The position numbers and the translations under genes are program-made. The notes beneath the pieces are model-generated. The model made no database searches, had not been told where the DNA came from, and saw only the letters and a program-made list of their open reading frames with translations. A stretch of DNA of 64,000 nucleotides. It comes from Sphingomonas mucosissima (GTDB taxonomy: Bacteria; Pseudomonadota; Alphaproteobacteria; Sphingomonadales; Sphingomonadaceae). How positions within the stretch are numbered: position 1 is the first letter of the stretch; each line of letters starts with the position of its first letter. Below, in pieces: positions 3,377 through 62,338 of the stretch. The stretch is from the NCBI RefSeq assembly GCF_002197665.1, contig NZ_NBBJ01000001.1:1178001-1242000 (forward strand), written 5' to 3'.

Positions 3377-4861
3377 ATGACTGATCTTACCGACCTTGGC
3401 ATTCGCGAGATCCGCGATGGCGTACGCGAGGGCACTTTCTCCGCACGCGAAGTGGCCGAAGCGTTCAACGCAGCCGTCAGCAGCGCGCGGCAACTCAATG
3501 CCTTTCTGGTCGAAACACCGGACCATGCGCTCGCCGCTGCCGATGCCGCCGATACCGCGCGCGCGGCTGGTGAGACGCTGAAGCCACTCGCAGGCGTGCC
3601 GATCGGCATGAAGGATCTGTTCTGCACCAAGGGAGTGGCCTCCACCGCCGCCAGCCACATCCTGGAAGGCTTCACGCCGCAGTATGAATCCACCGTGTCG
3701 CAGCGCCTGTGGGATGCCGGCGCGGGCATGCTGGGCAAGCTGAACATGGACCAGTTCGCCATGGGCTCGTCCAACGAGACCAGCGCGTTCGGCAACGTTA
3801 TCTCGCCGTGGCGCCGCAATGACGGCGGCAACGCGCCGCTGGCGCCCGGCGGCTCCTCGGGGGGCTCGTCGGCGGCAGTGTCTGCGCGCCTCTGCCCGGC
3901 CGCAACCGGCACCGACACTGGCGGCTCGATCCGCCAGCCGGCGGCGTTCACGGGTATATCGGGAATCAAGCCGACCTACGGCCGTTGCTCGCGCTGGGGC
4001 GTGATCGCTTTTGCCTCGTCGCTCGATCAGGCCGGGCCGATGGCCCGCGACGTGCGAGATTGCGCCATCATGCTGGAGGCGATGAGCGGCTTCGACCCGA
4101 AGGACGCTACGTCGCTCGACGTTCCCGTTCCCCGGTGGGAGCAGGGCCTAAACGCCAGCCTCGCCGGCAAGCGCGTCGGCATCCCGCGCGAATACCGCGT
4201 GGACAACATGCCCGAAGAGATCGAAGCGCTTTGGCAGCGCGGCATCGAATGGGTGAAGGACGCCGGCGCAGAAGTGGTCGAGGTGTCACTGCCGCACACC
4301 AAATACGCCCTTCCCGCGTATTACATCATCGCGCCCGCCGAGGCGTCGTCCAACCTCGCCCGCTACGATGGCGTTCGCTACGGCAAGCGCGATCTGCCAG
4401 ACGGCGCCAATCTCCAGGCAATGTACGCCGCCACCCGCGCGGCCGGCTTCGGCGAAGAGGTGAAGCGCCGGATCCTGATCGGCACCTATGTGCTCTCGGC
4501 CGGCTTCTACGACGCGTATTTCACCCAGGCATCGAAGGTGCGCACGCTGATCGCGCAGGACTTCGACAAGGCCTGGGAGAGCTGCGAGATTCTGCTCACC
4601 CCGACCGCGCCGTCCGCGGCGTTCGGTCTGGGCGAGAAGAGCGATGATCCGCTCGCCATGTATTTGAACGACGTCTTCACCGTGCCCTCGTCGCTTGCCG
4701 GCCTGCCCGCGATGAGCGTGCCCGGTGGCCTCGACAAGCACGGCCTGCCGCTCGGCCTCCAAGTGATCGGCAAGGCGCTGGACGAGCAAGGCGTCCTCAA
4801 TGCCGCGCTGGCGCTCGAGGAGCGTGCCGGCTTCGTCGCGCGCCCACAGGCGTGGTGGTGA
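3377..4861 (+). CDS. gatA: Asp-tRNA(Asn)/Glu-tRNA(Gln) amidotransferase subunit A
   Basis: 494 residues. Amidase-signature enzyme with catalytic Lys in [14 protein letters not shown] (about 76-89) and the Ser-cisSer-Ser region [15 protein letters not shown] (about 155-169), followed by [16 protein letters not shown]. It hydrolyses glutamine and passes ammonia to GatB for amidation of mischarged tRNA. The ATG at 3377 follows the gatC stop by 94 bases; no other gene fits in that spacer. The N-terminus ([16 protein letters not shown]) and C-terminus agree with full-length GatA. Confidence 0.97.
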
Positions 4862-4940
4862 GCCGCGCGCGGCACTTCATTATTTCCCATGAGGATGGGC
4901 GGGGCCTTGGCTGCCCCGGCCCGAACGGGTGTTTAGAGCT

Positions 4941-6392
4941 ATGACTGACTATCGCATCAAGGGCGCCACGGGCGATTGGGAGGTCGTGATCGGCCTCGAG
5001 GTACACGCGCAGGTGACGTCGAACGCGAAGCTATTCTCCGGTGCGGCCACGGCGTTTGGTGCCGAGCCCAATTCGCAGGTCAGCCTGATCGATGCCGCGA
5101 TGCCGGGCATGCTGCCGGTGCCGAACCGTGAATGCATCCGCCAGGCGGTGCGCACCGGCATGGCGATCGATGCGCAGATCAACAAATGGTCGCGCTTCGA
5201 TCGCAAGAATTACTTCTACGCCGATCTCCCGCAGGGCTACCAGATTTCGCAGCTTTATCATCCGATTGTCGGCGAAGGCTCGGTCGAGATCGAGGATGGT
5301 GACATCGTCAAGACGATCGGTGTCGAGCGTATCCACGTTGAGCAGGATGCCGGCAAGCTGATGCACGATCAGCACCCCACCCGCTCCTATGTCGATCTCA
5401 ACCGGTGCGGCGTTGCGCTCATGGAGATCGTCAGCCGCCCGGACATGCGCTCGCCGTCCGAAGCTGGCGCGTATCTTCGCAAGCTGCGCGCGATCCTTCG
5501 TTATGTCGGCTCATGTGACGGCAACATGGAGGAAGGCTCCATGCGCGCTGACGTCAACGTCAGCGTGCGCAAGCCGGGCGAAGAATTCGGCACGCGGACC
5601 GAGACGAAGAACGTCAACTCGGTGCGCTTCGTCATGGCCGCGATCGAGCATGAAGCGCATCGCCAGGTCGACGTGCTCGAGTCCGGCGGCAAGATCGTCC
5701 AGGAAACAAGGCTGTTCAATCCGGACACCGGCACCACGCGTTCGATGCGGTCGAAGGAAGATGCGCACGATTACCGCTACTTCCCTGACCCCGATCTGCT
5801 GCCGCTCGAGCTCGACGACGCCTTCCTTGAGGAATGCCGCGCATCGCTGCCGGAGCTGCCTGACGCGAAGCGCAAGCGCTACGAGGCGCTTGGCATCACC
5901 GCCTACAACGCCGATGTGCTGACCGCAGAGGTCGAGACCGCCCGCTGGTTCGACACGTTGCTTGATGCCGGCGCAGCGCCGGTCGCAGCATCGAACTGGG
6001 TCACCGGCGAGTTGTTCGGTGCGCTCAACCGGATGGGCAAGGGCATCACCGATTCGCCGGTGACCCCCGGTCAGGCGGCAGAGCTTCTCTCGCTCGTCGC
6101 TGATGGCACGCTCTCCGGCAGCCTCGCCAAGCAAGTGTTCGAGGTCATGCTCGAGACCGGCGATGCGCCCGGCAAGATCGTCGAAGAGCGCGGGCTTAAG
6201 CAGACCAGCGACACCGGCGCCATCGAGGCCGTGATCGCCGAAGTGCTGGCGAAGAACCCCGGACAGCTCGAGCAATATCGCGGCGGCAAGGTGGCGCTGT
6301 TCGGCTTCTTCGTCGGTCAGACGATGAAGGCGATGGGCGGCAAGGCGAATCCGCAGGTCGTCAACGATCTACTGAAGAAGGCGCTCGGCTAA
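4941..6392 (+). CDS. gatB: Asp-tRNA(Asn)/Glu-tRNA(Gln) amidotransferase subunit B
   Basis: 483 residues. [20 protein letters not shown] near the N-terminus, [17 protein letters not shown] and the C-terminal YqeY-like tail ([10 protein letters not shown] end) identify GatB, the kinase/transamidation subunit that binds mischarged tRNA. An in-frame GTG lies 12 bases upstream at 4929, but the ATG at 4941 gives the usual MTDYRIKG start. It is separated from gatA by 79 bases and completes the gatCAB operon. Confidence 0.97.
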
Positions 6393-42515: not shown

Positions 42516-42632
42516 CACCGGGGCGCCACTCGGCTGGTGCTTCCCCCGCGGCTGACTCAAGCAAAAACAGACTACCTCTCCGCGGAACGCTAAGTCATAA
42601 TGCGTTCCAAGAAAGAAAAAACGGAGAGGCAA

Positions 42633-44453
42633 ATGACACTCGAATCGCAGGCCGTGCACAGCGCGCCGGATGAGCAATTCGGCTTCGATCCAGCGGCGCT
42701 GAAGGCGAAGTACCTTGCGGAGCGGGACAAGCGAGTCCGGGCGGACGCTAACGATCAATATGTCGAGATGACCGGCAAGTTCGCCCATTATCTCGAAGAT
42801 CCTTACGTCGAACAGCCGATCGAGCGAGCGCCGCTCGCGGACGAAAAGGACGTCGTGGTCATCGGCGGCGGCTTCGGCGGGCTGCTGGCCGGTGCCAAGC
42901 TGCGCGAAGCCGGCATCGCTGACGTCCGCCTCATTGAGAAGGGCGGCGAGTTCGGCGGGACCTGGTATTGGAACCGCTACCCCGGCGCCGCCTGTGACAT
43001 CGAAAGCTACGTCTATCTTCCCCTTCTGGAAGAGACCGGTTTCATGCCCGAGCGCAAGTACAGCCAGGGCCCAGAGATCCGCGCCTACTCTCGCCGTATC
43101 GCCGAGCACTTCGATCTATACCGCGACGTCCTGTTTCAGTCCGAGGTCACCGACATGGCCTGGGACGAGGACGAACGACGCTGGACGGTATTCACCAATC
43201 GCGGTGACGCCATCCGCGCTCGCTTTGTAGTCATGGCGAACGGCCCGCTGCACCGTCCCAAGCTGCCGGGCATCCCGGGTATCGAGCAGTTTCAAGGCAA
43301 CACGTTCCACACCAGCCGGTGGGACTATGCCTATACCGGCGGCGATCAGAACGGCGGTCTCAACAAGCTCGGCGACAAGGTCGTGGGGATCATCGGCACC
43401 GGCGCGACCGCGGTTCAGTGCGTTCCCCATCTCGGCGCCAGCGCCAAGCAGCTTTACGTCTTTCAGCGCACACCGTCATCGATCGACGTGCGTGGCGATC
43501 GGCCAACCGATCGCGAATGGGCTGAAGCGCTCACCCCCGGCTGGCACCGTCACCGAATGGAGAACTTCAACACGCTCGTGTCCGGTGGATGGGCCGAGGA
43601 AGATCTGGTCAACGACGGCTGGACTGACATCATCCGCAACTTGGGCATGATCGCCCGCATGAAGGCAGTAAAATCGGGCGCGGAAAACCCCGACGAGCTG
43701 GTGCAGCTTGCCGACTTCCAGAAAATGGAATCGATCCGTGCGCGCGTCGATCAAGTCGTTCAGGACAAGGTGACGGCGGACGCGCTCAAGCCCTGGTACA
43801 ACCAATTCTGCAAACGACCCTGCTTCCATGACGATTACCTCGCCACCTTCAATCGCCCCAACGTCACGCTCGTGGACACGCAGGGTCAGGGCGTCGAGCG
43901 GATCACCCGCGGCGGCGTGGTGGTCGCCGGCAAGGAGTACAAACTCGATTGCCTGATCTTCGGCACCGGCTTTGAAGTCGGCACCAGCTACGCGCGTCGC
44001 GCCGGATACGACGTGCGCGGCGTCGGCGGGCGCACGCTGGAGGAGAAATGGGCCGATGGCGGCAAGACGCTGCACGGCATGACCGTGAACGGCTTTCCGA
44101 ACATGTTCATCTTCTCGGTCATTCAATCCGGTTTCACCGCCAATTATCCGCACGCGCTGCTGGAGCAGGCCGGCCACGCGGCGCACATCATCGCCGAAAC
44201 CATGCGGTCGCAGAAATCCCGCGTCGAACCGACCGAGGAAGCGGAAGAGGCGTGGACGCAGCAGATCCTCTCCGCGGTGCTCGATCGTCGCAAGTTCCTG
44301 GAGGAATGCACCCCGGGCTATTACAACGGCGAGGGACAACTCAGCCCCAAGGCGGCCAGCTTCTCCAGCTATGGCAAGGGCCCCAACGCCTTCTTCGACA
44401 TCATCAAGAGCTGGCGCGAGGACGGCCGCACGGAAGGAATGACGCTCGCGTGA
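42633..44453 (+). CDS. Baeyer-Villiger-type flavin monooxygenase
   Basis: 606 residues from the ATG at 42633, chosen over the ATG at 42600 because GGAGAGG precedes it. FAD Rossmann motif VVVIGGGFGGLLAGAKL (about 74-90), then GGTWYWNRYPGAACDIES. The BVMO fingerprint FQGNTFHTSRWDY starts at Phe220, with Asp in place of the usual final Pro. NADPH motif VGIIGTGATAVQCVPHLG. It inserts oxygen into ketones to give esters or lactones; steroid- or cycloketone-type substrates are plausible. No close regulator; the MDR-type oxidoreductase follows after 97 bases. Confidence 0.9.
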   Translation: MTLESQAVHSAPDEQFGFDPAALKAKYLAERDKRVRADANDQYVEMTGKFAHYLEDPYVEQPIERAPLADEKDVVVIGGGFGGLLAGAKLREAGIADVRLIEKGGEFGGTWYWNRYPGAACDIESYVYLPLLEETGFMPERKYSQGPEIRAYSRRIAEHFDLYRDVLFQSEVTDMAWDEDERRWTVFTNRGDAIRARFVVMANGPLHRPKLPGIPGIEQFQGNTFHTSRWDYAYTGGDQNGGLNKLGDKVVGIIGTGATAVQCVPHLGASAKQLYVFQRTPSSIDVRGDRPTDREWAEALTPGWHRHRMENFNTLVSGGWAEEDLVNDGWTDIIRNLGMIARMKAVKSGAENPDELVQLADFQKMESIRARVDQVVQDKVTADALKPWYNQFCKRPCFHDDYLATFNRPNVTLVDTQGQGVERITRGGVVVAGKEYKLDCLIFGTGFEVGTSYARRAGYDVRGVGGRTLEEKWADGGKTLHGMTVNGFPNMFIFSVIQSGFTANYPHALLEQAGHAAHIIAETMRSQKSRVEPTEEAEEAWTQQILSAVLDRRKFLEECTPGYYNGEGQLSPKAASFSSYGKGPNAFFDIIKSWREDGRTEGMTLA

Positions 44454-51963: not shown

Positions 51964-53517
51964 TCACGGCAGCGGATACCGCTCGAGGATCGCGCTGGTC
52001 ACGCCGTTGGTCCAGCCGAAGCCGTCCTGCGTCGGATACTCCCCGCCGCCGCCAGGCTTGCGCTCCTCCACGTCATATTTCTCCAGCATCTTGCCGGTGT
52101 CCGCATAAGCCGCCTCCACCGTGCCGAGCCAGCGCTTGGCGATCTCCCGCGCCAGTGCCGGCTGGCCGCTCCGCTCCAGCGCGGCGATTGCCACCCATTG
52201 CAGCGGCGCCCAGCCGTTGGGCGAGTCCCATTGCTGCCCGGTGCGGATCGGCGTGGTGCGCAGCCCCCCGGTCGCCAGAAGATCGCGGCGCACGGTAGTC
52301 GCCACCGCCGCCGCCTGCTGCGGCGAGGCTGCGCCCGCGAACAGGGGGTAGAGCATGGCAGCCGAGACGCGCGGCGTCGGCTTGCGCGCCACGCGGTCCC
52401 AATCGGCGTAACGGCCTTGGCGCGCCACCCAGAAGTAGCGGTTCAACGCAGCTCGGCGCTTATCTGCCATCGCCGTGAACGACTGGGCGCCCGCCTGATC
52501 GCCCGCAGCGGCGCTGCGCCTGGCGATCGCTTCCTCCATCATCAGCATCAAGCTGTTGAGATCGACCGGCACGATGTCGGTAGTCCGGATGGAGGCAAGA
52601 CGCTGCGGATCGGACAGCCAGCGGCTGCTGTAATCCCAGCCGCTTTCCGCCCCGGCGCGCAAGTGACGGTACATCTCCTCGGCCGGGCGGCTCGGGTCTT
52701 CCCCAGCGGTGATCACATCCTCGGCGTAGGATTCATCGCGCGGGAGCGGGCGATCGTCCCAATAGCGGTTGAGCAAGGTGCCGTCCGGCATCCGCACCAC
52801 CCGCGCGCACGCGCCGCTGGTATCGAGGCACTCGGCGCCCTTCATCCAATAGGCATGTTCCGTCTTCAGCGCCGCCAGCCGCTTTGCCGCCGTCGCGGGG
52901 TCGGCGTCCTTGGACAGGTCCAGCATCAGCGCAAAGAACGGCGGCTGCGCGCGGCCGAGATAATAGGTCCGCATGCCGTTGGGGATGTGGCCGTAGCGCT
53001 CGATCGTGTCTGTGAAGTTCGCCAGCATCGATTCGACGAGCGGCTGCTGCCCGTCGACGGCGAGCCCCAGCATGGTGAAATAGCTGTCCCAATAATACAT
53101 CTCGCGGAACCGGCCGCCGGGCACTACATAAGGCTGCGGCATCGGCAGCAGGGACGAGCCCGCGACCGGCGTATCGGCCTGGCGCACCAGCATCGGCCAC
53201 AGGTTGCGGATGTGGCGGCGCAGATCGGTTGCGCCGCGATCGTTGACGCCTGGAACCGTGAAGTTGGCGAGGACGAACGCGCGCAGCGCCTCGGGCGTCG
53301 TTGGCCGCTGCCGCTGGTAATCGGCCATGATCGCCTGCGGATCACGCTTGGGCACCGCATCGACGAAGGTCTTGCCGTCAGGGAACAGCCGACCCGTCTG
53401 CACGGCGCTGAACAGCTCCCCGTAAAGCGCGGCAGGCGATTGCTGCGCGCGGATCGGCTCGGCGACCAGCGTACACACCGCCAGAGATGTCCCGATCAGC
53501 GATTGCCAAAACTTCAT
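51964..53517 (-). CDS. treA: Periplasmic trehalase
   Basis: 517 residues. Signal peptide MKFWQSLIGTSLAVCTLVAE with cleavage near RAQQ. Trehalase signature 1 is PGGRFREMYYWDSYF (about 133-147); signature 2 is QWDSPNGWAPLQWVA. The GH37 acid Asp is in AESGWDYSSRWL and the base Glu lies in GGGEYPTQDGFGWTNG. It hydrolyses trehalose to two glucoses in the periplasm. Its ATG overlaps the upstream esterase stop (ATGA, 53514-53517), so the two are co-translated. Divergent from a TonB receptor. Confidence 0.95.
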   Translation of the reverse strand: MKFWQSLIGTSLAVCTLVAEPIRAQQSPAALYGELFSAVQTGRLFPDGKTFVDAVPKRDPQAIMADYQRQRPTTPEALRAFVLANFTVPGVNDRGATDLRRHIRNLWPMLVRQADTPVAGSSLLPMPQPYVVPGGRFREMYYWDSYFTMLGLAVDGQQPLVESMLANFTDTIERYGHIPNGMRTYYLGRAQPPFFALMLDLSKDADPATAAKRLAALKTEHAYWMKGAECLDTSGACARVVRMPDGTLLNRYWDDRPLPRDESYAEDVITAGEDPSRPAEEMYRHLRAGAESGWDYSSRWLSDPQRLASIRTTDIVPVDLNSLMLMMEEAIARRSAAAGDQAGAQSFTAMADKRRAALNRYFWVARQGRYADWDRVARKPTPRVSAAMLYPLFAGAASPQQAAAVATTVRRDLLATGGLRTTPIRTGQQWDSPNGWAPLQWVAIAALERSGQPALAREIAKRWLGTVEAAYADTGKMLEKYDVEERKPGGGGEYPTQDGFGWTNGVTSAILERYPLP

Positions 53518-54572
53518 CGTTCGTCACCCTTTTTGACTGGATCTGCCGGTGCCGCACCCAGATGCCGATCGAAAAACGCGGAAACAAGCCGGAATGCCTC
53601 TATCGATTCCGGCATATTGGGCCAGACAAAGAACGCGTGGCCAAGCCCGTCGAAGATCTGAAGCTCACTCTTCACCCCCAATGCCGACAGCCGACGATGC
53701 TGCCAGGTCAGCACACTGGAGGCGAAATCACGGCTGCCGGCGAGGTGAAGCGTGGGCGGAAACTGCCGCATCACTGCGTCTGAGCCAAGCGGGTAGGCGA
53801 GCGGATCGTCGGCCGGAATACCTTTCATGTACGCAGCTTGCAGCTCAGTTGGCAGCGCTCCTGCACGCATCGGCTTGCCGGTGGTCAGCGGGTCGGAGAG
53901 ATAGGCGCTGTCCCCGGCATACGCGCCGCCTGTGCCGCAAAACGTGCCGACGGCCCCCGGGCGCGGTAGGTGGTGGCGCTGGAACCAGGCGACCGATTGC
54001 GCGGTAATGACGCCGCCCGCCGAACATCCGTAGATGCCGATGTTCTCCGGGCGATAGCGTTTCAGAAGTTCGCGATACACCGCCGCGATGTCCTGCGAGG
54101 CGGCGGGGTAGCGATGCTCAGGGGCCAAACGATAGTCGACGGTTACCACCGTGATTCCCATGGTCGCTGCGATCGGGATTGCCTCCACCAGCGCGCCGCT
54201 GCCGCTGCCCCACATGAAGGCGCCGCCATGCACGTTGATCAGCACGCGTTCCGCGTTGCGCATGGACGGGCCATTGGCCGGGGTGACCACGTCCACCACA
54301 ACGCCGCCTAGACGTTCACGACGCTCGGCCGTGCGGAAGTGGCGCCGCATCTCCGCCAGACGATCGTCATTGTAGCGCCCCCAGAAAGCACGTGCTGCGG
54401 CAATGTCGTCACCGAAGTCAGGCGGGCGGATCGCCTGCTGTTGGACAATCACGCGCTTTGCCTCATTACTCAGCAACGTGGACGGCGGCAGCGTCATCGC
54501 CGGAACCTTCACCGTCTGCGCCGCCACCGGCGCGGCCAGCATCAGGAGCGCCATCACCAAGCCTGACTTCAC
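53514..54572 (-). CDS. Exported alpha/beta hydrolase (HSL-type esterase)
   Basis: 352 residues from the GTG at 54570-54572, preceded by GGAGG 6 bases away; an ATG six codons in (54554) would still leave a signal peptide (MALLMLAAPVAAQT). HSL family: oxyanion motif VLINVHGGAFMWG, nucleophile in GIYGCSAGGVIT, Asp in HLAGSRDFAS and His in FDGLGHAFFVWP. Likely a periplasmic carboxyl esterase, perhaps deacetylating sugars given its partner trehalase and the divergent glycan genes; that role is inferred. Confidence 0.88.
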   Translation of the reverse strand: MKSGLVMALLMLAAPVAAQTVKVPAMTLPPSTLLSNEAKRVIVQQQAIRPPDFGDDIAAARAFWGRYNDDRLAEMRRHFRTAERRERLGGVVVDVVTPANGPSMRNAERVLINVHGGAFMWGSGSGALVEAIPIAATMGITVVTVDYRLAPEHRYPAASQDIAAVYRELLKRYRPENIGIYGCSAGGVITAQSVAWFQRHHLPRPGAVGTFCGTGGAYAGDSAYLSDPLTTGKPMRAGALPTELQAAYMKGIPADDPLAYPLGSDAVMRQFPPTLHLAGSRDFASSVLTWQHRRLSALGVKSELQIFDGLGHAFFVWPNMPESIEAFRLVSAFFDRHLGAAPADPVKKGDER

Positions 54573-54726
54573 CCTCGCCTCCTCATCAACTGTTGCAGAA
54601 AGGCTGCACCATATGCAGGATTGCGCAACACCCTTTTGCGCTCCTCGACGGGAACAAACCTCGTTCCTATCTCGCGCATATCAGGCCGCTACCGGGAGGA
54701 GCGGCTCAAGCAAAAGGGTAAAGATC
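54573..54726. promoter_or_regulatory. Divergent regulatory region of the trehalase and TonB-sulfatase operons
   Basis: 154 bases between the esterase start (minus) and the TonB receptor start (plus). No gene fits. Both promoters should lie here, so a shared regulator is possible, but I cannot identify an operator by eye and none of the neighbouring genes is a transcription factor. Confidence 0.4.
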
Positions 54727-57225
54727 ATGCTTTCCACATTGATGGGCCGTCTCATGATCGGCACTGCCGCCGGCGCCATGCTCGCTGCCGGGTCAGTTGC
54801 TGCGCAGACCGACACGTCTGCCGCTCAGTCCGCGGATAGCGCGCAACGCGCGCAACCGGACACGGGTCTGATCGATACGTCCGCTCAGAACGGGGATGAT
54901 ATCGTTGTTGTCGGTACCGCTGGCGGCGGCACGCGCCGTCAGGACGCGTCCTTCGCCGTCACGACCCTCGGCAACGACGCAATCGAGCGCGCCGCCCCGA
55001 ACAGCACCGCCGATCTGCTGCGCACGGTTCCGGGCGTGATGGCGGAAAGCTCGGGCGGCCAGAACGGCGCCAACATCTTCGTGCGCGGCTATCCGTCGGG
55101 CGGCGACGCGCAGTTCGTCACCTTCCAGTACGCCGGCACGCCGATCTTCGCGCCGCCGACGCTCTCGTTCCTGGAGAATTCGCAGCTCATCCGCCTCGAC
55201 GAGACGGTACAGCGCGTCGAGGCCGTCCGCGGCGGCACTGGCTCGCTGTTCTCCAACGGCCAGCCGGGCCTCACCGTCAACGTCGTGCCGCGCATCGGCG
55301 GCAGCGAGCTCCACGGCCTGGCCAAGGTTTCGTACACCGACTTCGACGAGATCCGCGGAGACGCCTGGATCTCTGGTCCGCTCGGCGAGAACACCGGCTT
55401 CATGGTCGGCGGTTATTACGCGCAGAGCAACGGCATCCGCGATCCGCGCTACCGTGCCGAGCAGGGCGGCCAGATCACGGCGAACATTCACCATGATTTC
55501 GGTGACAAGGGCTCCGTGGAAATCTACGCCCGCTACTTGAACGACCGCGGCCAGTGGCTCCTGCCGATTCCGGTGGTCGTGGATGGCAATAACACCAGCC
55601 AGTACCCCGGCTTCGATCATGGCACCGGAACGCTGAACGGCCCGGATACGCGCGCCGTGCAGAACGTCGTTGGCCGCACCGTGGATCTGCAGGACGGTCG
55701 CGGCGCCAAGGTCATCAACACCGGCTTCAACTTCGATTACGAGGTGGTCGATGGCCTGCGCGTGCGTGAGCGCATGAGCTACATGGGGGGCAACGCCGAC
55801 ACGCGTGGCTTGGTGCCGGCCGAGGCGCCAGTTGCCGCTTCAGTGATGGCGACACGGCTCGCGGGTGCGGGCGCCACGGTATCGTCGCTCGTTTATGCCG
55901 ACGGCAGCGGCGCGCTGGCTACCGGTGCGGGCACGCCTGTTCTGCGCGCCGGCATCTGGGAAGTGCGCAAGAAGATTTCGTCCTTTGTCGCCGACACGGC
56001 GCTGGAGTGGACGGCCGGCAACAACAAGCTGACCGGCGGGTTCTATTACACCAACTTTACCTCACGCGATCAGTGGGCGCTGGGCAACCAGGTGCTGCTC
56101 ACGGCAGAGCCTAACGCCCGGCGGCTCGACATGGGCGTGACCAGTGCAGCGGGCACGGCGCAGCAGGCGACGCTGCGCGGCTTCACCAGCGGCCCGGCCT
56201 TCCAAGTGCGCGGCTGGTATGAAGGCCAGGATCTGGCTTTCTATGCGGTGGACGAGTTCCAGATCACGCCGGAACTGCGCATCGATGGCGGCATTCGCTG
56301 GCAGCGCCACATCGTGGACGGTACGCTCAGCACGCCGCGCACCGCAGCGCAGGGCGGCAACGTCAACCTGGATGGCAATCCCAACACGCTGTACGACAAC
56401 AGCGTCACCGTGCTCGGGCCGCTGCGCAATATCCGCTATCGTGACGACGCATGGTCGTGGACCGCAGGCGTCAATTACGACTTCAGCCGCAGCGTGGGCG
56501 TGTTCGCCCGCTACAGCCGCGGCAACAGCTTCCCGCAGTTCGACAATCTGCGCGAAGCCAGCGCGGCCGACATCGCCAACAACACCGGCTTGGCGGTGGT
56601 TGCCGAAGTCGACACCTACGAAGGCGGCCTGAAGGTTTCGACCGACATCGCCAATCTCTACGCCACCGTCTTCCACAACCGCTTCGACGGTTTGGCGACC
56701 ACGACGATCATCAACGACGTGCCGACCAGCTCCAACGGCGGCGCGAAGGCGACCGGCGTCGAGCTGGAAGGCGTGGTGCGTCCGTTCCGCGGCTTCAGCC
56801 TGGCGGCGGCCGGCACGTTCCTCGACGGTACCTACCGTGATTTCTTCACGGGCAACGGGCTGATCGATAATACCGGCAATCGCGTGCAGCGCCAGCCGAA
56901 GTGGATGTGGCGCGTGACCCCGGCCTATGAACTGCCGGTCGGCAGCATTCGGCCGTCGCTGTTCGCCACGCTGCAATACACCGGTGATCGCTTCTCCGAT
57001 CCGGAGAACAATCAGCTGCTGCCGAACTTCTATCAGCTCGACGCTGGTGTCTCGGTAACGGTGGCGGATCGCATCCGCTTGCAGGTGACCGGCAACAACC
57101 TGACCGACGAGCTGGGCCTGACGGAGCAGAACCCGCGCATCATCGGTGGCCAGGGCCAGGGCGTGATCCTCGCTCGTCCGATCCTGGGTCGTTCGTTCCG
57201 CTTCAGCGCGGCGTTTGAATTCTGA
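54727..57225 (+). CDS. TonB-dependent receptor of the sulfatase/GH92 operon
   Basis: 832 residues from the ATG at 54727. Signal peptide (MLSTLMGRLMIGTAAGAMLA), then a TonB-box-like DDIVVVGTAGGGTRR. Plug motifs are STADLLRTVPGVMAESSGG, NIFVRGYPSGGDAQFVTFQY and RVEAVRGGTGSLFSNGQPG. The barrel ends GRSFRFSAAFEF with terminal Phe. By position it should bring a substrate for the two sulfatases and GH92 enzyme into the periplasm. A strong terminator follows at 57246, so the downstream enzyme genes need readthrough or their own promoter. Confidence 0.92.
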   Translation: MLSTLMGRLMIGTAAGAMLAAGSVAAQTDTSAAQSADSAQRAQPDTGLIDTSAQNGDDIVVVGTAGGGTRRQDASFAVTTLGNDAIERAAPNSTADLLRTVPGVMAESSGGQNGANIFVRGYPSGGDAQFVTFQYAGTPIFAPPTLSFLENSQLIRLDETVQRVEAVRGGTGSLFSNGQPGLTVNVVPRIGGSELHGLAKVSYTDFDEIRGDAWISGPLGENTGFMVGGYYAQSNGIRDPRYRAEQGGQITANIHHDFGDKGSVEIYARYLNDRGQWLLPIPVVVDGNNTSQYPGFDHGTGTLNGPDTRAVQNVVGRTVDLQDGRGAKVINTGFNFDYEVVDGLRVRERMSYMGGNADTRGLVPAEAPVAASVMATRLAGAGATVSSLVYADGSGALATGAGTPVLRAGIWEVRKKISSFVADTALEWTAGNNKLTGGFYYTNFTSRDQWALGNQVLLTAEPNARRLDMGVTSAAGTAQQATLRGFTSGPAFQVRGWYEGQDLAFYAVDEFQITPELRIDGGIRWQRHIVDGTLSTPRTAAQGGNVNLDGNPNTLYDNSVTVLGPLRNIRYRDDAWSWTAGVNYDFSRSVGVFARYSRGNSFPQFDNLREASAADIANNTGLAVVAEVDTYEGGLKVSTDIANLYATVFHNRFDGLATTTIINDVPTSSNGGAKATGVELEGVVRPFRGFSLAAAGTFLDGTYRDFFTGNGLIDNTGNRVQRQPKWMWRVTPAYELPVGSIRPSLFATLQYTGDRFSDPENNQLLPNFYQLDAGVSVTVADRIRLQVTGNNLTDELGLTEQNPRIIGGQGQGVILARPILGRSFRFSAAFEF

Positions 57226-57245
57226 TCTGACCACTGCCAATATCT

Positions 57246-57279
57246 GGGCGGCGCTTTACACGAAGCGCCGCCCTTTTTT
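57246..57279 (+). terminator. Strong rho-independent terminator after the TonB receptor
   Basis: GGGCGGCGCTT and AAGCGCCGCCC form an 11-bp stem with a 6-base loop, followed by TTTTTT. It begins 20 bases past the receptor stop and 73 bases before the first sulfatase ATG. Confidence 0.92.
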
Positions 57280-57351
57280 CTTTCCGCGGCACTTCCCCGA
57301 CGGCTGTTTCCCGCCTTCGCGTAGATGATGGATGACGCTATCGTCTGTGCC

Positions 57352-58776
57352 ATGGATAGACGTAACGTATTGAAGGGCATGGCCGGAATCGCCGCCGCCA
57401 GCGCCGCCCCCGGCTTCGCCCAGACCACCACCCCGCCGGGCAAGAAGCCGCGCAACGTCCTCTTGCTGATCTCCGACGATCAGGGCCTCGATCTTGGCTG
57501 CTATGGCGTTGCGGTGAAGACGCCGCGGCTCGATCGCCTCGCGCGCGGCGGCACGCTCTTCCGCCACGGCTATGCCGCCGTTTCCTCGTGCAGCCCCAGC
57601 CGCGCGGTGATCAACACCGGGCTCTACACGCATCAGAACGGCATGTACGGCCTGCAGCACGACGTGCATCACCAGTCGCTGCTGCCGGGGATCGAAACGC
57701 TGCCTGCGATGCTGCGCCGTGCCGGCTATGCCACCGCGCTCGTCGGCAAGAAGCATGTCGGGCCGGACAGCGCCTTTCCCTATCAGGCGGAACTCGTTCC
57801 CGAACGCGGCGGCATCCGCGACGTGCGCGAACTCGTCATCGCCGCGGCGAGCTTCATCCGCTCGACTGATGAGCGGCCGTTCTTCGTCACCGTCGCGTAC
57901 AGCGATCCGCATCGCGCCGCGGTGGATTACGGCAACGATCGCGCCTGGCCGGGCGTGAAGCCGGAAAGCTACGATCCGCGCCGCGTGCAGATCCCGTCGC
58001 ATCTGCCCGATCTTGCTGCCGTGCGGCAGGACATCGCCGAATATTATGAATCGCTCAGCCGCCTCGACGCCGGCGTCGGCATGATCCTCGACGATCTCGC
58101 CGCCACCGGCCGCGCCGACGATACGTTGGTCATCTTCCTCAGCGACAACGGCCGGCCCTTCCCCGGCGCGAAGACGAACCTCTACGATGCCGGCCTCCAC
58201 CTCCCGCTCATCGTCCACGCGCCGGGCAGCGCCCCGGCCGTGAACGACGCGATGGTCAGCTGGACCGACATCGCCCCCACCGTCCTCGATTGGGCCGGCG
58301 TCGCCCCTCCTGCCGCCTATAAGCTGTCCGGCACGTCATTGCTGCCGATCCTCGGCAAGGCCGGCGATCCCGCGCGCGACGCGATCGTCGCCAGCCACGA
58401 TTTCCACGAGATCAATCAATATTATCCGATGCGCAGCATCCGCACGCGCACCCACAATTACATCCTCAACCTCGCCTGGCAGCTGCCGTACCCGATCGCC
58501 GGGGACGTGGCGGGCTCGCCATCGTGGAAGGCGATCAGCGCCGATCCCGCGATCCCGCTCGGCAAGCGCAGTCAGGCGGCGTACCTTCAGCGTCCGCCGG
58601 AAGAATTGTACGATCTAACCCGCGATCCGGACGAGCTGGTGAACGTCGCCGCCGATCCTGCCTATGCCGCGATCAAGGCCCGGCTTGCCGAACGGCTGCG
58701 CACGATCCGCGCCGAGACCCGCGACCCCTGGCTCGCCGGGCAGACCGATCCTTACTCCCACGTGGGCCAGCATTGA
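57352..58776 (+). CDS. Secreted type I sulfatase
   Basis: 474 residues from the ATG at 57352. Tat-type signal MDRRNVLKGMAGIAAASAAP with a cleavage site near GFA. Type I sulfatase: metal Asp pair NVLLLISDDQGLD, formylglycine motif CSPSR with Cys80, histidine pattern VGKKHVGPDSAFPYQ, later FLSDNGRPFPGAKTNLYDAG. It hydrolyses a sulfate ester after its Cys is converted to formylglycine by FGE or a maturase encoded elsewhere. The stop overlaps the next ATG (TGATG). Confidence 0.93.
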   Translation: MDRRNVLKGMAGIAAASAAPGFAQTTTPPGKKPRNVLLLISDDQGLDLGCYGVAVKTPRLDRLARGGTLFRHGYAAVSSCSPSRAVINTGLYTHQNGMYGLQHDVHHQSLLPGIETLPAMLRRAGYATALVGKKHVGPDSAFPYQAELVPERGGIRDVRELVIAAASFIRSTDERPFFVTVAYSDPHRAAVDYGNDRAWPGVKPESYDPRRVQIPSHLPDLAAVRQDIAEYYESLSRLDAGVGMILDDLAATGRADDTLVIFLSDNGRPFPGAKTNLYDAGLHLPLIVHAPGSAPAVNDAMVSWTDIAPTVLDWAGVAPPAAYKLSGTSLLPILGKAGDPARDAIVASHDFHEINQYYPMRSIRTRTHNYILNLAWQLPYPIAGDVAGSPSWKAISADPAIPLGKRSQAAYLQRPPEELYDLTRDPDELVNVAADPAYAAIKARLAERLRTIRAETRDPWLAGQTDPYSHVGQH

Positions 58777-60335
58777 TGACTAAGGGTATCGACCGCCGCG
58801 GCGTGCTTCTCGCCGGCACCGGGGGCGCGTTCGGCCTCTACAGCTTCGCCGCCGGCGCCGCGCCCGCGACGAAGCAATTGAAGCTGCGGCGCAAGCCGGG
58901 CGTGAAGCCCAAGAACATCCTCGTCATCCTCACCGACGATCATCGCTACGACGCGATGGGCTTCATGAAGGCGCAGGATTTCGGCGAGACGCCGACGCTC
59001 GATCGCCTGGCGCGCGGGGGCGTGCATTTCCGCAACGCCTTCGTCACCACCGCGCTCTGCTCGCCCAGCCGCGCCTCGATCTTCACCGGCCTCTACGCGC
59101 ACCAGCATCGCGTGGTGGACAACAATCACCCGATCCCGCCCGGCCTCACTTACTATCCCGAATATCTCCAGGCCGCCGGCTATGAGACCGCGTTCATCGG
59201 CAAATGGCACATGGGCATCGAGACGGATTCGCCGCAGCCCGGCTTCGATCACTGGGTCAGCTTCAAGGGCCAGGGCAATTATCTGCCGCACCCCGACGGG
59301 CTCAACGTCAACGGCCGGCATGTTCCTCAGAAAGGCTATATCACTGACGAGCTGACCGATTACGCGCTCGACTGGATCGGCCAGCGCGACGCCAAGAAGC
59401 CGTGGATGATGCACCTCGCGCACAAGGCGGTGCATTCCGAATTCATCCCGGCGGAACGCCACAAGGGGCGCTACGACAAGGAAACCTTTCGCTATCCGGC
59501 CAACATGAAGCCGGGCGTTCCCGGCCGCCCGATGTGGGTCGAGAACCAGCGCAACAGCTGGCACGGCGTCGACTATCCGTACCACGGCACGCTCGACATC
59601 GCGGATTATTACAAGCGCTACATGGAAACGCTGCTGGCGGTGGACGAAGGCATCGCGCGGATCATGGATCTCCTCGACCAGCGCGGCGAGCTCGATGACA
59701 CCCTTATCCTCTACATGGGCGACAATGGCTTCATGTTCGGCGAACACGGCCTGATCGACAAGCGCGCCGCTTATGAGGAATCGATGCGCGTGCCGATTCT
59801 GATGCGCTGCCCGTCGCTGTTCGGTGCCGGCACCGTCGAGCACGTCGTCGCCAACATCGATGTCGCCCCCACCATGCTCGCCGCCGCCGGGCTGGAGGCG
59901 CCGGACGGCCTCGCCGGATCGAACATGCTCCCGTTGGTCACCGTCTCGCCGGCAAGCGGCGGCGCGGCCGAGGTGCCGTGGCGCAAGGAACTGATGTACG
60001 AATATTATTGGGAACGGAATTTCCCGCAGACGCCCACCGTCCACGCGCTGCGCGAGGATCGCTACAAGTACATCCACTTCCATGGCATCTGGGATCTCGA
60101 CGAGCTCTACGACCTCGCCGCCGATCCGCACGAGAACGACAATCTCCTCGCCCGCCCCGGCCATGAGGATCTCGCCGAACGGATGAGCGCCAAGCTCTTC
60201 CGCCTGCTGGAAGAGACCAACGGCATGCAAATCCCGCTCAGCGCCGACGCTGGCGAGCGCAACAAACTGCGCGATCCAAACGGCCCCGCCATGGCGCCAT
60301 TCCCGCCCAGTTTCTTCCGTCCGCCGCACAAGTGA
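58776..60335 (+). CDS. Second secreted type I sulfatase
   Basis: 519 residues, starting at the ATG that shares a base with the upstream stop (TGATG at 58774-58778). Tat-type signal KGIDRRGVLLAGTGGAFGLY. Sulfatase features: NILVILTDDHRYDAMGF, formylglycine Cys95 in ALCSPSRASIFTGLY, IGKWHMGIETDSPQPGFDHW and MGDNGFMFGEHGLIDK. It differs from the first sulfatase, so the two probably remove different sulfates from one glycan. It overlaps the GH92 start by 4 bases (GTGA, 60332-60335). Confidence 0.93.
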   Translation: MTKGIDRRGVLLAGTGGAFGLYSFAAGAAPATKQLKLRRKPGVKPKNILVILTDDHRYDAMGFMKAQDFGETPTLDRLARGGVHFRNAFVTTALCSPSRASIFTGLYAHQHRVVDNNHPIPPGLTYYPEYLQAAGYETAFIGKWHMGIETDSPQPGFDHWVSFKGQGNYLPHPDGLNVNGRHVPQKGYITDELTDYALDWIGQRDAKKPWMMHLAHKAVHSEFIPAERHKGRYDKETFRYPANMKPGVPGRPMWVENQRNSWHGVDYPYHGTLDIADYYKRYMETLLAVDEGIARIMDLLDQRGELDDTLILYMGDNGFMFGEHGLIDKRAAYEESMRVPILMRCPSLFGAGTVEHVVANIDVAPTMLAAAGLEAPDGLAGSNMLPLVTVSPASGGAAEVPWRKELMYEYYWERNFPQTPTVHALREDRYKYIHFHGIWDLDELYDLAADPHENDNLLARPGHEDLAERMSAKLFRLLEETNGMQIPLSADAGERNKLRDPNGPAMAPFPPSFFRPPHK

Positions 60336-62338
60336 TACCGCTAGTGACCGATTATCGCGCGCGATGGCGCCGCGTCTGCACGGCTGTCGCGGCCGCCACC
60401 GCCCTCCTCGCCGCCGCGCCCGCTGCTGCGCGGGAGAAGGCCGTCGACCTCGTCGATCCGTTTGTCGGCACGCTCGGCGATTTCGGCCAGCTCACCCCCG
60501 CCGCCGTCGCGCCTTACGGCATGGTGCAGCTGGGCCCGGACACTGACCCCAGGAATCACGCAGGCTACGACTTCGCCGCCCGCCAGCTTCGCGGCTTCTC
60601 GCACACCCGCGCGGTCGGGGTCGGCTGCGGCGGCGGGGGCGGCGACTTGCTCATCTCGCTGCTCCCCGAAGGCGCCGCGCCGCTCGCGCCGCTCGACAAG
60701 GCGAGCGAGCGCGCCTCCGCCGGCCGCTACCGCGTCAGCTACGCCAACGGCATCACGGCGGAAATGACGGCAACGCGCGGCGCGGGGCTGCTGCGCTTCA
60801 CCGTCACGAAGCCGGGCCGCTACGTCCTTCGCCTCGACGCGGCGAACGCCTATACCCGCCGCCACGCCGCCACCGTCACCGCGGATCTTCGCGCCAGCAT
60901 GACGGCGGGCACCGTGTGCGACGAAGGCGCCTACACCATCCACACCGCCAGCCGCGTCACGATCGACGGCAAGCCCGCGCCCGCCGCCACCGTCTTCGGC
61001 GCTGCCGCCACCCTGCCGCTCACCCTCAGGCGCGGCGCGATGGTGGAGGTGCGCACCGGCCTATCCACCGTCGATCCCGCCGCCGCCGCGGTGGTGCGCG
61101 ATACCGAGCTCGGCGCCCGCCCCTTCGCCGCCATCCTCGCCGCCACCCGCGCGCGCTGGCAGCACGAGCTCTCCCGCCTCGACGTCACGGCCCCGCGCGA
61201 TCGCCGCGCGCTCTTCTACACCTCGCTCTACCGCGTCATGCAGACGCCGGTCGCGATCCAGGATCCGGACGGCCGCCACCGCGGCAGTGACGGCCGCATC
61301 CACCGCTCCCTTCCGGGCGAGACGCGCTACGCCAGCTGGGCGCTGTGGGACAATTACCGCACCCAGCTCCCGCTCATCGCGCTCATCGATCCCGCCCGCG
61401 CCGCGGACATCGCCCGTTCGCTCGTCGCGCTCTACGGCGAGGGCAAGCAGCGCTGGGCGACGCGGACCGAGCCCTTCCTCACCGTCCGTACCGAGCATGC
61501 CGGCGTCGCGCTGCTCGATTTCCGCCGTCGCGGCATCACCGGCTTCGACGCCCACGCCGCGCTCGCCGGCATGGTGCGCGAGTCCGACACGCTCCAGCGC
61601 GACACGCCCGATCAGCAGATCGAGGCCGCCTATGACGACTGGGCCATCGCCGAGCTCGCCGCCGATCTGGGCGACACCGCCACCGCCGCCCGCTTCCGCG
61701 CGAAGGCGCTCGCATACCGCCCGATGTGGCGCGCCACCTGCGAGACGCTCGGCGCCGACGCGGACGTGGTGAAGGCGCGGGGCCTCTACCAAGGCACGCT
61801 GTGGCAATATCGCTGGGCGCCGGTCTTCGATCTCGACTGGATGGTGGAGACGCTCGGCCGCGACCGCTTCGTGCACGAACTCGACACCTTCTTCGCCAGC
61901 GGCCTCTACAACATGACCAACCAGCCGGACATCCACGTCCCCTGGCTCTACGCCGCGCTCGGCCGGCCGGCGGCGACCAGCGCGATCGTCCACCGCTACC
62001 TCACCCAGCCGGTCGATCACCCTTATGCCAACGAGGGTAAGCGCCCGCTGCCGTGGCACGGCCGCAGCTTCGCCCTCGCGCCGCAGGGCTTCGCGGACGG
62101 CATGGATGATGACGCCGGCGCGATGACGGCATGGTACGTCTGGGGCAGCCTCGGCCTCTACCCGATCGTTCCCGGCAGACCGGAGTGGTCGGTCAGCGCG
62201 CCGTTGGTAAAGCGAGCGGCGCTGCGCCTAAAGAACGGGCGAAATCTGATAATTACGCAAACCCCAGATAACCCGATCGGTACGCCCCTAATCACAGTGG
62301 ACAGCGTCAATCAGAATAAACAATCGCTTACATTCTGA
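60332..62338 (+). CDS. GH92-family alpha-mannosidase homologue with altered acid residue
   Basis: 668 residues from a GTG at 60332 coupled to the sulfatase. A signal sequence (VCTAVAAATALLAAAPAAA) is followed by the GH92 start VDLVDPFVGTLGDFGQLTP and GVGCGGGGGDLLISLL. The base region is kept as FADGMDDDAGAMTAWYVWG (Asp592-594). Where the family reads YEG..WQY with the general-acid Glu, this protein reads YQGTLWQY (Gln487), and the NEP motif reads NQP (Gln531). Typical GH92 enzymes are Ca-dependent inverting alpha-mannosidases. A member with Gln in the acid position was reported to act on mannose-1-phospho linkages, as I recall. Periplasmic; substrate uncertain. Confidence 0.87.
   Translation: MIPLVTDYRARWRRVCTAVAAATALLAAAPAAAREKAVDLVDPFVGTLGDFGQLTPAAVAPYGMVQLGPDTDPRNHAGYDFAARQLRGFSHTRAVGVGCGGGGGDLLISLLPEGAAPLAPLDKASERASAGRYRVSYANGITAEMTATRGAGLLRFTVTKPGRYVLRLDAANAYTRRHAATVTADLRASMTAGTVCDEGAYTIHTASRVTIDGKPAPAATVFGAAATLPLTLRRGAMVEVRTGLSTVDPAAAAVVRDTELGARPFAAILAATRARWQHELSRLDVTAPRDRRALFYTSLYRVMQTPVAIQDPDGRHRGSDGRIHRSLPGETRYASWALWDNYRTQLPLIALIDPARAADIARSLVALYGEGKQRWATRTEPFLTVRTEHAGVALLDFRRRGITGFDAHAALAGMVRESDTLQRDTPDQQIEAAYDDWAIAELAADLGDTATAARFRAKALAYRPMWRATCETLGADADVVKARGLYQGTLWQYRWAPVFDLDWMVETLGRDRFVHELDTFFASGLYNMTNQPDIHVPWLYAALGRPAATSAIVHRYLTQPVDHPYANEGKRPLPWHGRSFALAPQGFADGMDDDAGAMTAWYVWGSLGLYPIVPGRPEWSVSAPLVKRAALRLKNGRNLIITQTPDNPIGTPLITVDSVNQNKQSLTF

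Follow-up and report, generated by a model that had tools for sequence, protein, structure and literature searches.

How could a family 92 glycoside hydrolase (GH92) work without its general acid, and what would it cleave? The question is raised by a gene in a 64,000-nucleotide stretch of the Sphingomonas mucosissima genome (contig NZ_NBBJ01000001.1; the whole stretch is referred to here as the window), whose product carries Gln487 in place of the general-acid Glu that is usual, though not universal, in GH92 enzymes; this Glu is also missing from CcMan5 of Cellulosimicrobium cellulans (PDB 2xsg, 4aq0). The reading frame is intact, and its GTG start overlaps the stop codon of the preceding sulfatase gene, SULF2, by 4 bases (Table 1). 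Both GH92 domains scored far above their curated Pfam cut-offs (PF07971, 259.2 bits against 24.6; PF17678, 107.1 bits against 34.5), and the N terminus, judged by eye, is putatively of the secreted type. An AlphaFold model of the protein had a mean pLDDT of 90.7, and CcMan5 was both its best fold match in the PDB (2xsg_B, TMq 0.84) and the closest solved sequence (4aq0, E value of 9.1e-55). Compared with the nearest orthologue (L045, approximately 89% identical), the gene gave a dN/dS of 0.26 (NG86) or 0.10 (YN00), well below 1, and is thus under purifying selection; together with the intact frame, this rules out that it is a pseudogene. It is the sole GH92 gene of its genome by Pfam search, to which a protein search added a short GH92 fragment (G000:C2:31418-31555, minus strand; L042, 5364-5547) that is 61% identical, contains one stop and is broken in frame. 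The fragment appears to be the remnant of a second GH92 gene resembling the Gln-bearing branch.

Table 1. Positions in the window of the GH92 gene, its catalytic and motif residues and the genes upstream
Feature	Position	Strand	Basis or remark
Trehalase	51964..53517	-	Pfam PF01204, 484.1 bits
GCSAG-subfamily hormone-sensitive-lipase-type esterase	53514..54572	-	NCBIfam NF058650, 499.6 bits (cut-off 410)
TonB-dependent receptor	54403..57225	+	Pfam barrel 3e-27, plug 6.7e-12
Terminator-like hairpin, 12 pairs, T-rich tail	57246..57273	+	Between receptor gene and SULF1
SULF1, S1-type sulfatase, CSPSR motif	57325..58776	+	Pfam Sulfatase 4.4e-47
SULF2, S1-type sulfatase, CSPSR motif	58776..60335	+	Pfam Sulfatase 2.5e-57
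GH92 enzyme, 668 aa	60332..62338	+	Pfam PF07971 and PF17678
R386-T-E388 of the VRxE motif	61487..61495	+	Columns that track the clade; proposed contact with the leaving group
Gln487 codon (YQGTLWQY), general-acid position	61790..61792	+	Aligns with BT3990 Glu533
Gln531 codon (NQP), not the acid	61922..61924	+	Aligns with BT3990 Gln602
D592-D593-D594, with D594 the catalytic base	62105..62113	+	D594 aligns with BT3990 Asp644

To place these residues, we aligned the protein with characterized GH92 enzymes, using the acid and base roles given in the excerpted text of PMC5930347 and PMC12858847. The published residue numbers of BT3990 equal those of the solved chain plus 19, and 16 was added for BT3130. 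Gln487 fell on the acid of BT3990 and on that of BT3130 (Glu535), which confirms the position assigned to it by a first-pass annotation made from the DNA letters. The claim that the Asp base region is kept held equally well: D592-D593-D594 pairs with Asp642-Glu643-Asp644 of BT3990, and D594 also pairs with the base Asp637 of BT3130. The same annotation had also drawn on Gln531, as standing where Glu is usual, and this part of the argument has to be withdrawn: residue 531 is no second lost acid. BT3990, an ordinary alpha-1,2-mannosidase, has Gln in that column, which is therefore naturally either Glu or Gln, and among the open reading frames (ORFs) surveyed below, Gln stood there in 14 of the 116 that carry the acid Glu, and 3 of the 19 without it had Glu at this column; by these alignments, residue 531 does not vary in step with the acid. 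The fold, the base Asp and Gln at column 531 are thus shared with BT3990 and the Bacteroides alpha-1,2-mannosidases, but BT3990 has the acid Glu, the His584-Glu585 loop and no VRxE motif, whereas the window protein has Gln, a gap and VRxE. That loop, described in the excerpts of PMC5930347 as holding the +1 sugar, and with it the His-Glu pair expected of a BT3990-type alpha-1,2-mannosidase, is gapped in the orthologues examined too. T384 pairs with Cys393 of BT3990, which marks the −1/+1 boundary according to the same excerpts, and R386 and E388 stand two and four residues beyond it.

We followed these residues through an alignment of 135 GH92 ORFs, which came from 106 loci and had been gathered with the window protein as bait; the collection is hence enriched in its relatives. 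The base D594 was Asp in all 135. At the acid column, 116 ORFs had Glu and the other 19 had Gln, namely the window protein itself, a further 16 copies from sphingomonads, a copy with an internal deletion that leaves a 279-residue in-frame gap (L041) and one copy from a Persicobacter plasmid. All 18 aligned sphingomonad copies had Gln. Both R386 and E388 were present in every Gln-acid ORF (19/19) and in a single Glu-acid ORF, that of Catenovulum, which carries VRTEH; the remaining 115 combined the acid Glu with absence of VRxE. CcMan5 and seven actinobacterial copies (L169 and L191-L196) likewise have Gln and VRxE. In a survey by exact pattern, a measure that overlooks variants such as L048 with GTI, YQG(T/N/K)Lx(Q/H)YxW was found in 0 of 395 Bacteroidota, 1 of 396 Actinomycetota and 2 of 398 Pseudomonadota genomes (the last set overlaps with the genomes of the GH92 protein search). 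A narrower pattern matched six of the 147 genomes from the order to which G787 belongs.

In a 40-row tree, computed with columns 487 and 531 removed and the VRxE columns retained, the VRxE proteins formed a clade of 21 rows with support of 100/100. It consisted of CcMan5, L169, the Persicobacter and Catenovulum proteins and 17 sphingomonad proteins, 20 of them with Gln and one with Glu, so that the window protein groups with CcMan5 and away from the Glu-acid enzymes except for one Glu member inside the clade. The acid column requires two changes on this tree. An exclusive Gln clade was rejected (AU test, p of 0.00027), which leaves either a single loss of Gln or repeated gains. In the simplest story, the ancestor of the clade would have carried Gln and the Catenovulum lineage would have returned to Glu; separate gains of Gln within the clade would also be compatible with the tree. 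The exact places of L127 and L126 are unsure because both sit on long branches.

The likeness to CcMan5 extends from the Gln at the acid position and the VRxE motif to membership of one fully supported clade, and further to the shared stretches GDFG and GVGxxGGGG and the base segment MD(D/N)DA, at 32% identity over 595 aligned residues; CcMan5 differs in having Glu at column 531, where the window protein has Gln. The Gln-bearing relative cited in the first-pass annotation is clearly CcMan5: in the solved sequence, Gln occupies this place (GLYQGTLWQYHW). A single sentence of PMC5930347, a later paper, gives the Man-PO4-Man phosphodiester as the target of CcMan5, the one enzyme named there for cleavage of mannose from phosphate by GH92. 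Changing the acid Glu to Gln in a fungal GH92 left no activity on 4NP-mannoside or alpha-manno-oligosaccharides (PMC12858847, excerpts), so that ordinary hydrolysis is not to be expected of an enzyme with Gln; an Enterococcus GH92 carrying E494Q has been crystallized in a complex, going by the shortened title of 7fe2. From these residues and relationships, we consider that the window protein is probably, at roughly 60%, a hydrolase resembling CcMan5 that cleaves linkages of alpha-mannosyl phosphate or others activated to a similar degree. As a member of the CcMan5-like branch, it is predicted to be active and exported, to require Ca and to act as an inverting exo-alpha-mannosidase, in which the conserved −1 pocket would bind a terminal alpha-mannose and D594 would activate the water. 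The natural leaving group would be a phosphate ester, such as Man-alpha-1-O-PO2-O-R, held through its charge by R386 just beyond the −1/+1 boundary. An inverting mannosidase without an acid could still work if the leaving group departs as a stable anion, and on this proposal the general acid is absent because a phosphate leaving group needs no proton. The primary paper on CcMan5 is reportedly that of Tiels et al. 2012. Our literature searches found no paper joining GH92 with mannose-1-phospho-6-mannose or any mannose-1-phosph* term, and none that combined three of the four subjects GH92, Cellulosimicrobium, uncapping and mannose-6-phosphate; of three papers that mention CcMan5, one concerned this enzyme, and among the papers listed for GH92 with mannosyl phosphate or phosphomannan, none dealt with the Gln-acid type.

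The genes that accompany the Gln-bearing enzymes suggest the same chemistry. In six of the seven actinobacterial copies (L169, L191-L194 and L196), a PAP2 phosphatase region is part of the same polypeptide, a call made by Pfam for L169 only (E value of 1.3e-10) and for the others by 79-84% identity to the L169 region; L169 and L191-L194 belong to one order, L196 lies on a Streptomyces plasmid, and L195 is without PAP2. For the counts by locus, neighbors were sought in flanks of about 8-10 kb where the contig permitted and, for the window locus, in the entire window. A DUF218 gene was found near GH92 at 15 of 20 Gln loci, with partial genes at L038 and L050 included, against 0 of 72 Glu loci, where diverged members could be missed because the queries were drawn from the Gln loci and from a paralogue in the window's own genome. 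Fisher's p of 2e-13 for this difference overstates independence because the Gln loci are related, though that of Persicobacter comes from a different phylum. A PI-PLC-C1 gene (phosphoinositide phospholipase C) was present at 4 of 20 Gln loci (L034, L047, L048 and L127) and absent from the flanks of the other 16, and 2 of 72 Glu loci gave weak matches. Both genes occur on the plasmid of Persicobacter (Bacteroidota), in the row FecR, SusC, SusD, DUF218, GH92 with Gln and PI-PLC-C1. Counted by genome in a nonrandom sample of 40 (20 with a GH92 match and the first 20 unmatched in the list), DUF218 homologues were found in 9 of 9 genomes with a Gln GH92 and in 2 of 31 others, and PI-PLC-C1 in 6 of 9 and 3 of 31, respectively. 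The eight genomes behind L045-L052 gave a full-length PI-PLC-C1 match in four and a short match in one, and the window's genome gave none. This company of PAP2, DUF218 and PI-PLC-C1 suggests a fit with cleavage of mannose phosphate. Against it count the actinobacterial copy without PAP2, the 16 Gln loci without PI-PLC and the Glu of Catenovulum, whose locus holds PI-PLC, metallophosphoesterase, receptor and inositol oxygenase genes with no DUF218 neighbor found; since the Catenovulum enzyme has Glu there, such a context does not force Gln. On a plasmid of Asticcacaulis excentricus, a Glu-acid GH92 gene (L197, 5896-8193) lies among iolG, iolC, iolD and iolE and a sugar ABC transporter, and its product is a candidate mannosyl-inositol hydrolase.

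Also against the phosphate reading, the operon in the window has sulfatases where its relatives have DUF218 or PI-PLC. It contains two sulfatase genes and no phosphatase gene, and, unlike the mostly PAP2-fused actinobacterial relatives of CcMan5, its GH92 is without PAP2. The internal ATG from which SULF2 is read shares its first base with the end of the SULF1 stop codon. The hairpin ahead of SULF1 is by far the longest of six terminator-like sites in the region (3.9 expected from shuffled sequences). The true start of the receptor gene probably lies further in than the annotated one; the esterase gene is divergent from it and is overlapped by the trehalase gene over 4 bases. The nearest solved chains were N-sulphoglucosamine sulphohydrolase for SULF1 (4mhx, 1.5e-95) and N-acetylglucosamine-6-sulfatase for SULF2 (5g2v, 1.6e-83). 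By this best PDB match, SULF2 may be S1_11-like, which would recall the pairing of PbGH92_1 with an S1_11 sulfatase in a diatom sulfated-mannan locus (PMC13063451, excerpts). Among the loci examined, SULF1-SULF2 directly preceded GH92 only in the window, at L045 and at the second locus of G171, a genome of another genus in which the receptor-SULF1-SULF2 row is followed by a GH92 remnant with two TGA and two TAG stops (L043, G171:C13, approximately 4735-5150); an intact Gln GH92 lies elsewhere in that genome (L038). A SULF1 homologue (E value of 1e-60 or better) was present in 6 of 199 genomes of the family. In four of these six (G057, G182, G094 and G046), the receptor-SULF1 pair had no GH92 gene within the surrounding 18 kb, with G046 and G057 carrying GH92 elsewhere; esterase and trehalase homologues accompany the pair in G057 and a GH65 gene in G094. 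By these counts, the idea that the sulfatases are ancestral partners of GH92 is unsupported. From the lone pairs and the G171 remnant, it seems that a few related sphingomonads acquired GH92 as an addition to a sulfatase module. As a guess, this module may feed on a sulfated acyl-trehalose or a mannose-bearing glycolipid. Other sphingomonad copies of the receptor-SULF1 pair are accompanied by homologues of the esterase and trehalase (L181) or by GH65 and an MFS transporter (L183), and a cluster of this kind (51964-58776 in the window) could possibly serve the utilization of sulfated trehalose lipids.

The sulfatases bring up the first of three other explanations, namely that the leaving group is not a C1-phosphate and that R386 binds a charged partner, such as a phosphoinositide or a sulfated glycolipid or mannan, while a substrate group or an ordered water gives the proton. 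We regard this as rather unlikely. Sulfate esters and phosphodiesters, being ionized at neutral pH, have none to donate, and G171 retained its receptor-SULF1-SULF2 row beside a stop-ridden GH92, though with an intact copy elsewhere. The two sulfatases of the operon speak for a charged partner, as do the PI-PLC-C1 genes at 4 of 20 Gln loci and the inositol oxygenase of Catenovulum, which point to phosphoinositides, and the single cascade in which GH92 and an S1_11 sulfatase act on 6-sulfated mannan (excerpts of PMC13063451); CcMan5, of the same clade, is nevertheless reported to act on a C1-phosphodiester in the excerpts of PMC5930347. The second explanation, an ordinary alpha-mannosidase whose acid has moved, most likely to E388 of VRxE, appears improbable. 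E388 does accompany Gln in all 19 Gln-acid ORFs and is found in only one of the 116 others, but that one, from Catenovulum, has E388 in addition to a normal Glu, so that E388 does not simply replace the acid, and CcMan5, which shares this Glu, is described as a phosphodiester hydrolase (PMC5930347, in part). That the protein is a non-catalytic mannose-binding or scaffold protein, as might be argued from the abolished ordinary activity of the fungal GH92 on loss of its acid (PMC12858847, excerpts) and from the decayed copies in the clade (the remnants in its own genome and in G171 and the gapped L041), is very unlikely given the base Asp in 135 of 135 ORFs, the low dN/dS and the uniform Gln, with no mixture of residues, in 18 of 18 sphingomonad copies. 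Loss of activity, the other outcome that the first-pass annotation had allowed for, is likewise less likely in view of conservation across the clade and purifying selection.

If the enzyme is indeed a mannosyl phosphate hydrolase, Gln together with VRxE would identify phosphate-cleaving GH92 enzymes from sequence alone. Plant myrosinases carry a Glu-to-Gln change, to which the GH92 case would be a glycoside-hydrolase parallel. CcMan5 is used to remove the mannose cap from mannose-6-phosphate glycans, and Gram-negative alternatives for this step would become available. The gene neighborhood would moreover place DUF218 proteins in a catabolic context that is open to experiment. We tentatively propose that the Gln GH92 and DUF218 genes, with or without PI-PLC-C1 and a receptor of the outer membrane, may constitute a phosphoglycolipid-scavenging cassette shared by Alphaproteobacteria and Bacteroidota that would remove mannose from envelope lipids that are phosphoinositide- or phospho-linked, with DUF218 as a catalytic partner. 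Among the matches listed in a search of the literature on GH92 and polysaccharide utilization, none involved phosphoinositide phospholipase C. A fold search with DUF218 returned no PDB match within an E value of 0.001. Above that limit, E. coli YdcF (3ca8; E value of 0.019, probability of 0.99) was the match from the DUF218 family, and it indicates no mechanism. E. coli ElyC, another DUF218 protein, affects phosphoglyceride-linked ECA according to the abstract of PMC8609368, a clue to the role of DUF218 that is suggestive only. If the cassette is real, DUF218 proteins, a family known for its part in controlling envelope phosphoglycolipids, would acquire a role in catabolism.

DUF218 genes also adjoin TonB-dependent receptor genes away from any Gln GH92, at L150 (9134-10408), L151 (9176-10354) and L152 (8416-9588). 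The first of these, in the window's genome, lies beside a ROK regulator and an MFS_2 transporter and the last beside an alpha-L-rhamnosidase. Such settings suggest that DUF218 proteins are a general catabolic partner, and as these three loci are without a Gln GH92, the link between the two families may be one use among several. The C-terminal DPLDP of the DUF218 proteins was invariant in 12 aligned rows. Elsewhere in the window, positions 42600-44453 encode a flavin monooxygenase-like protein. Its score against the model for neopentalenolactone/pentalenolactone D synthase was 786.9 bits, short of the 1100 that the model requires.
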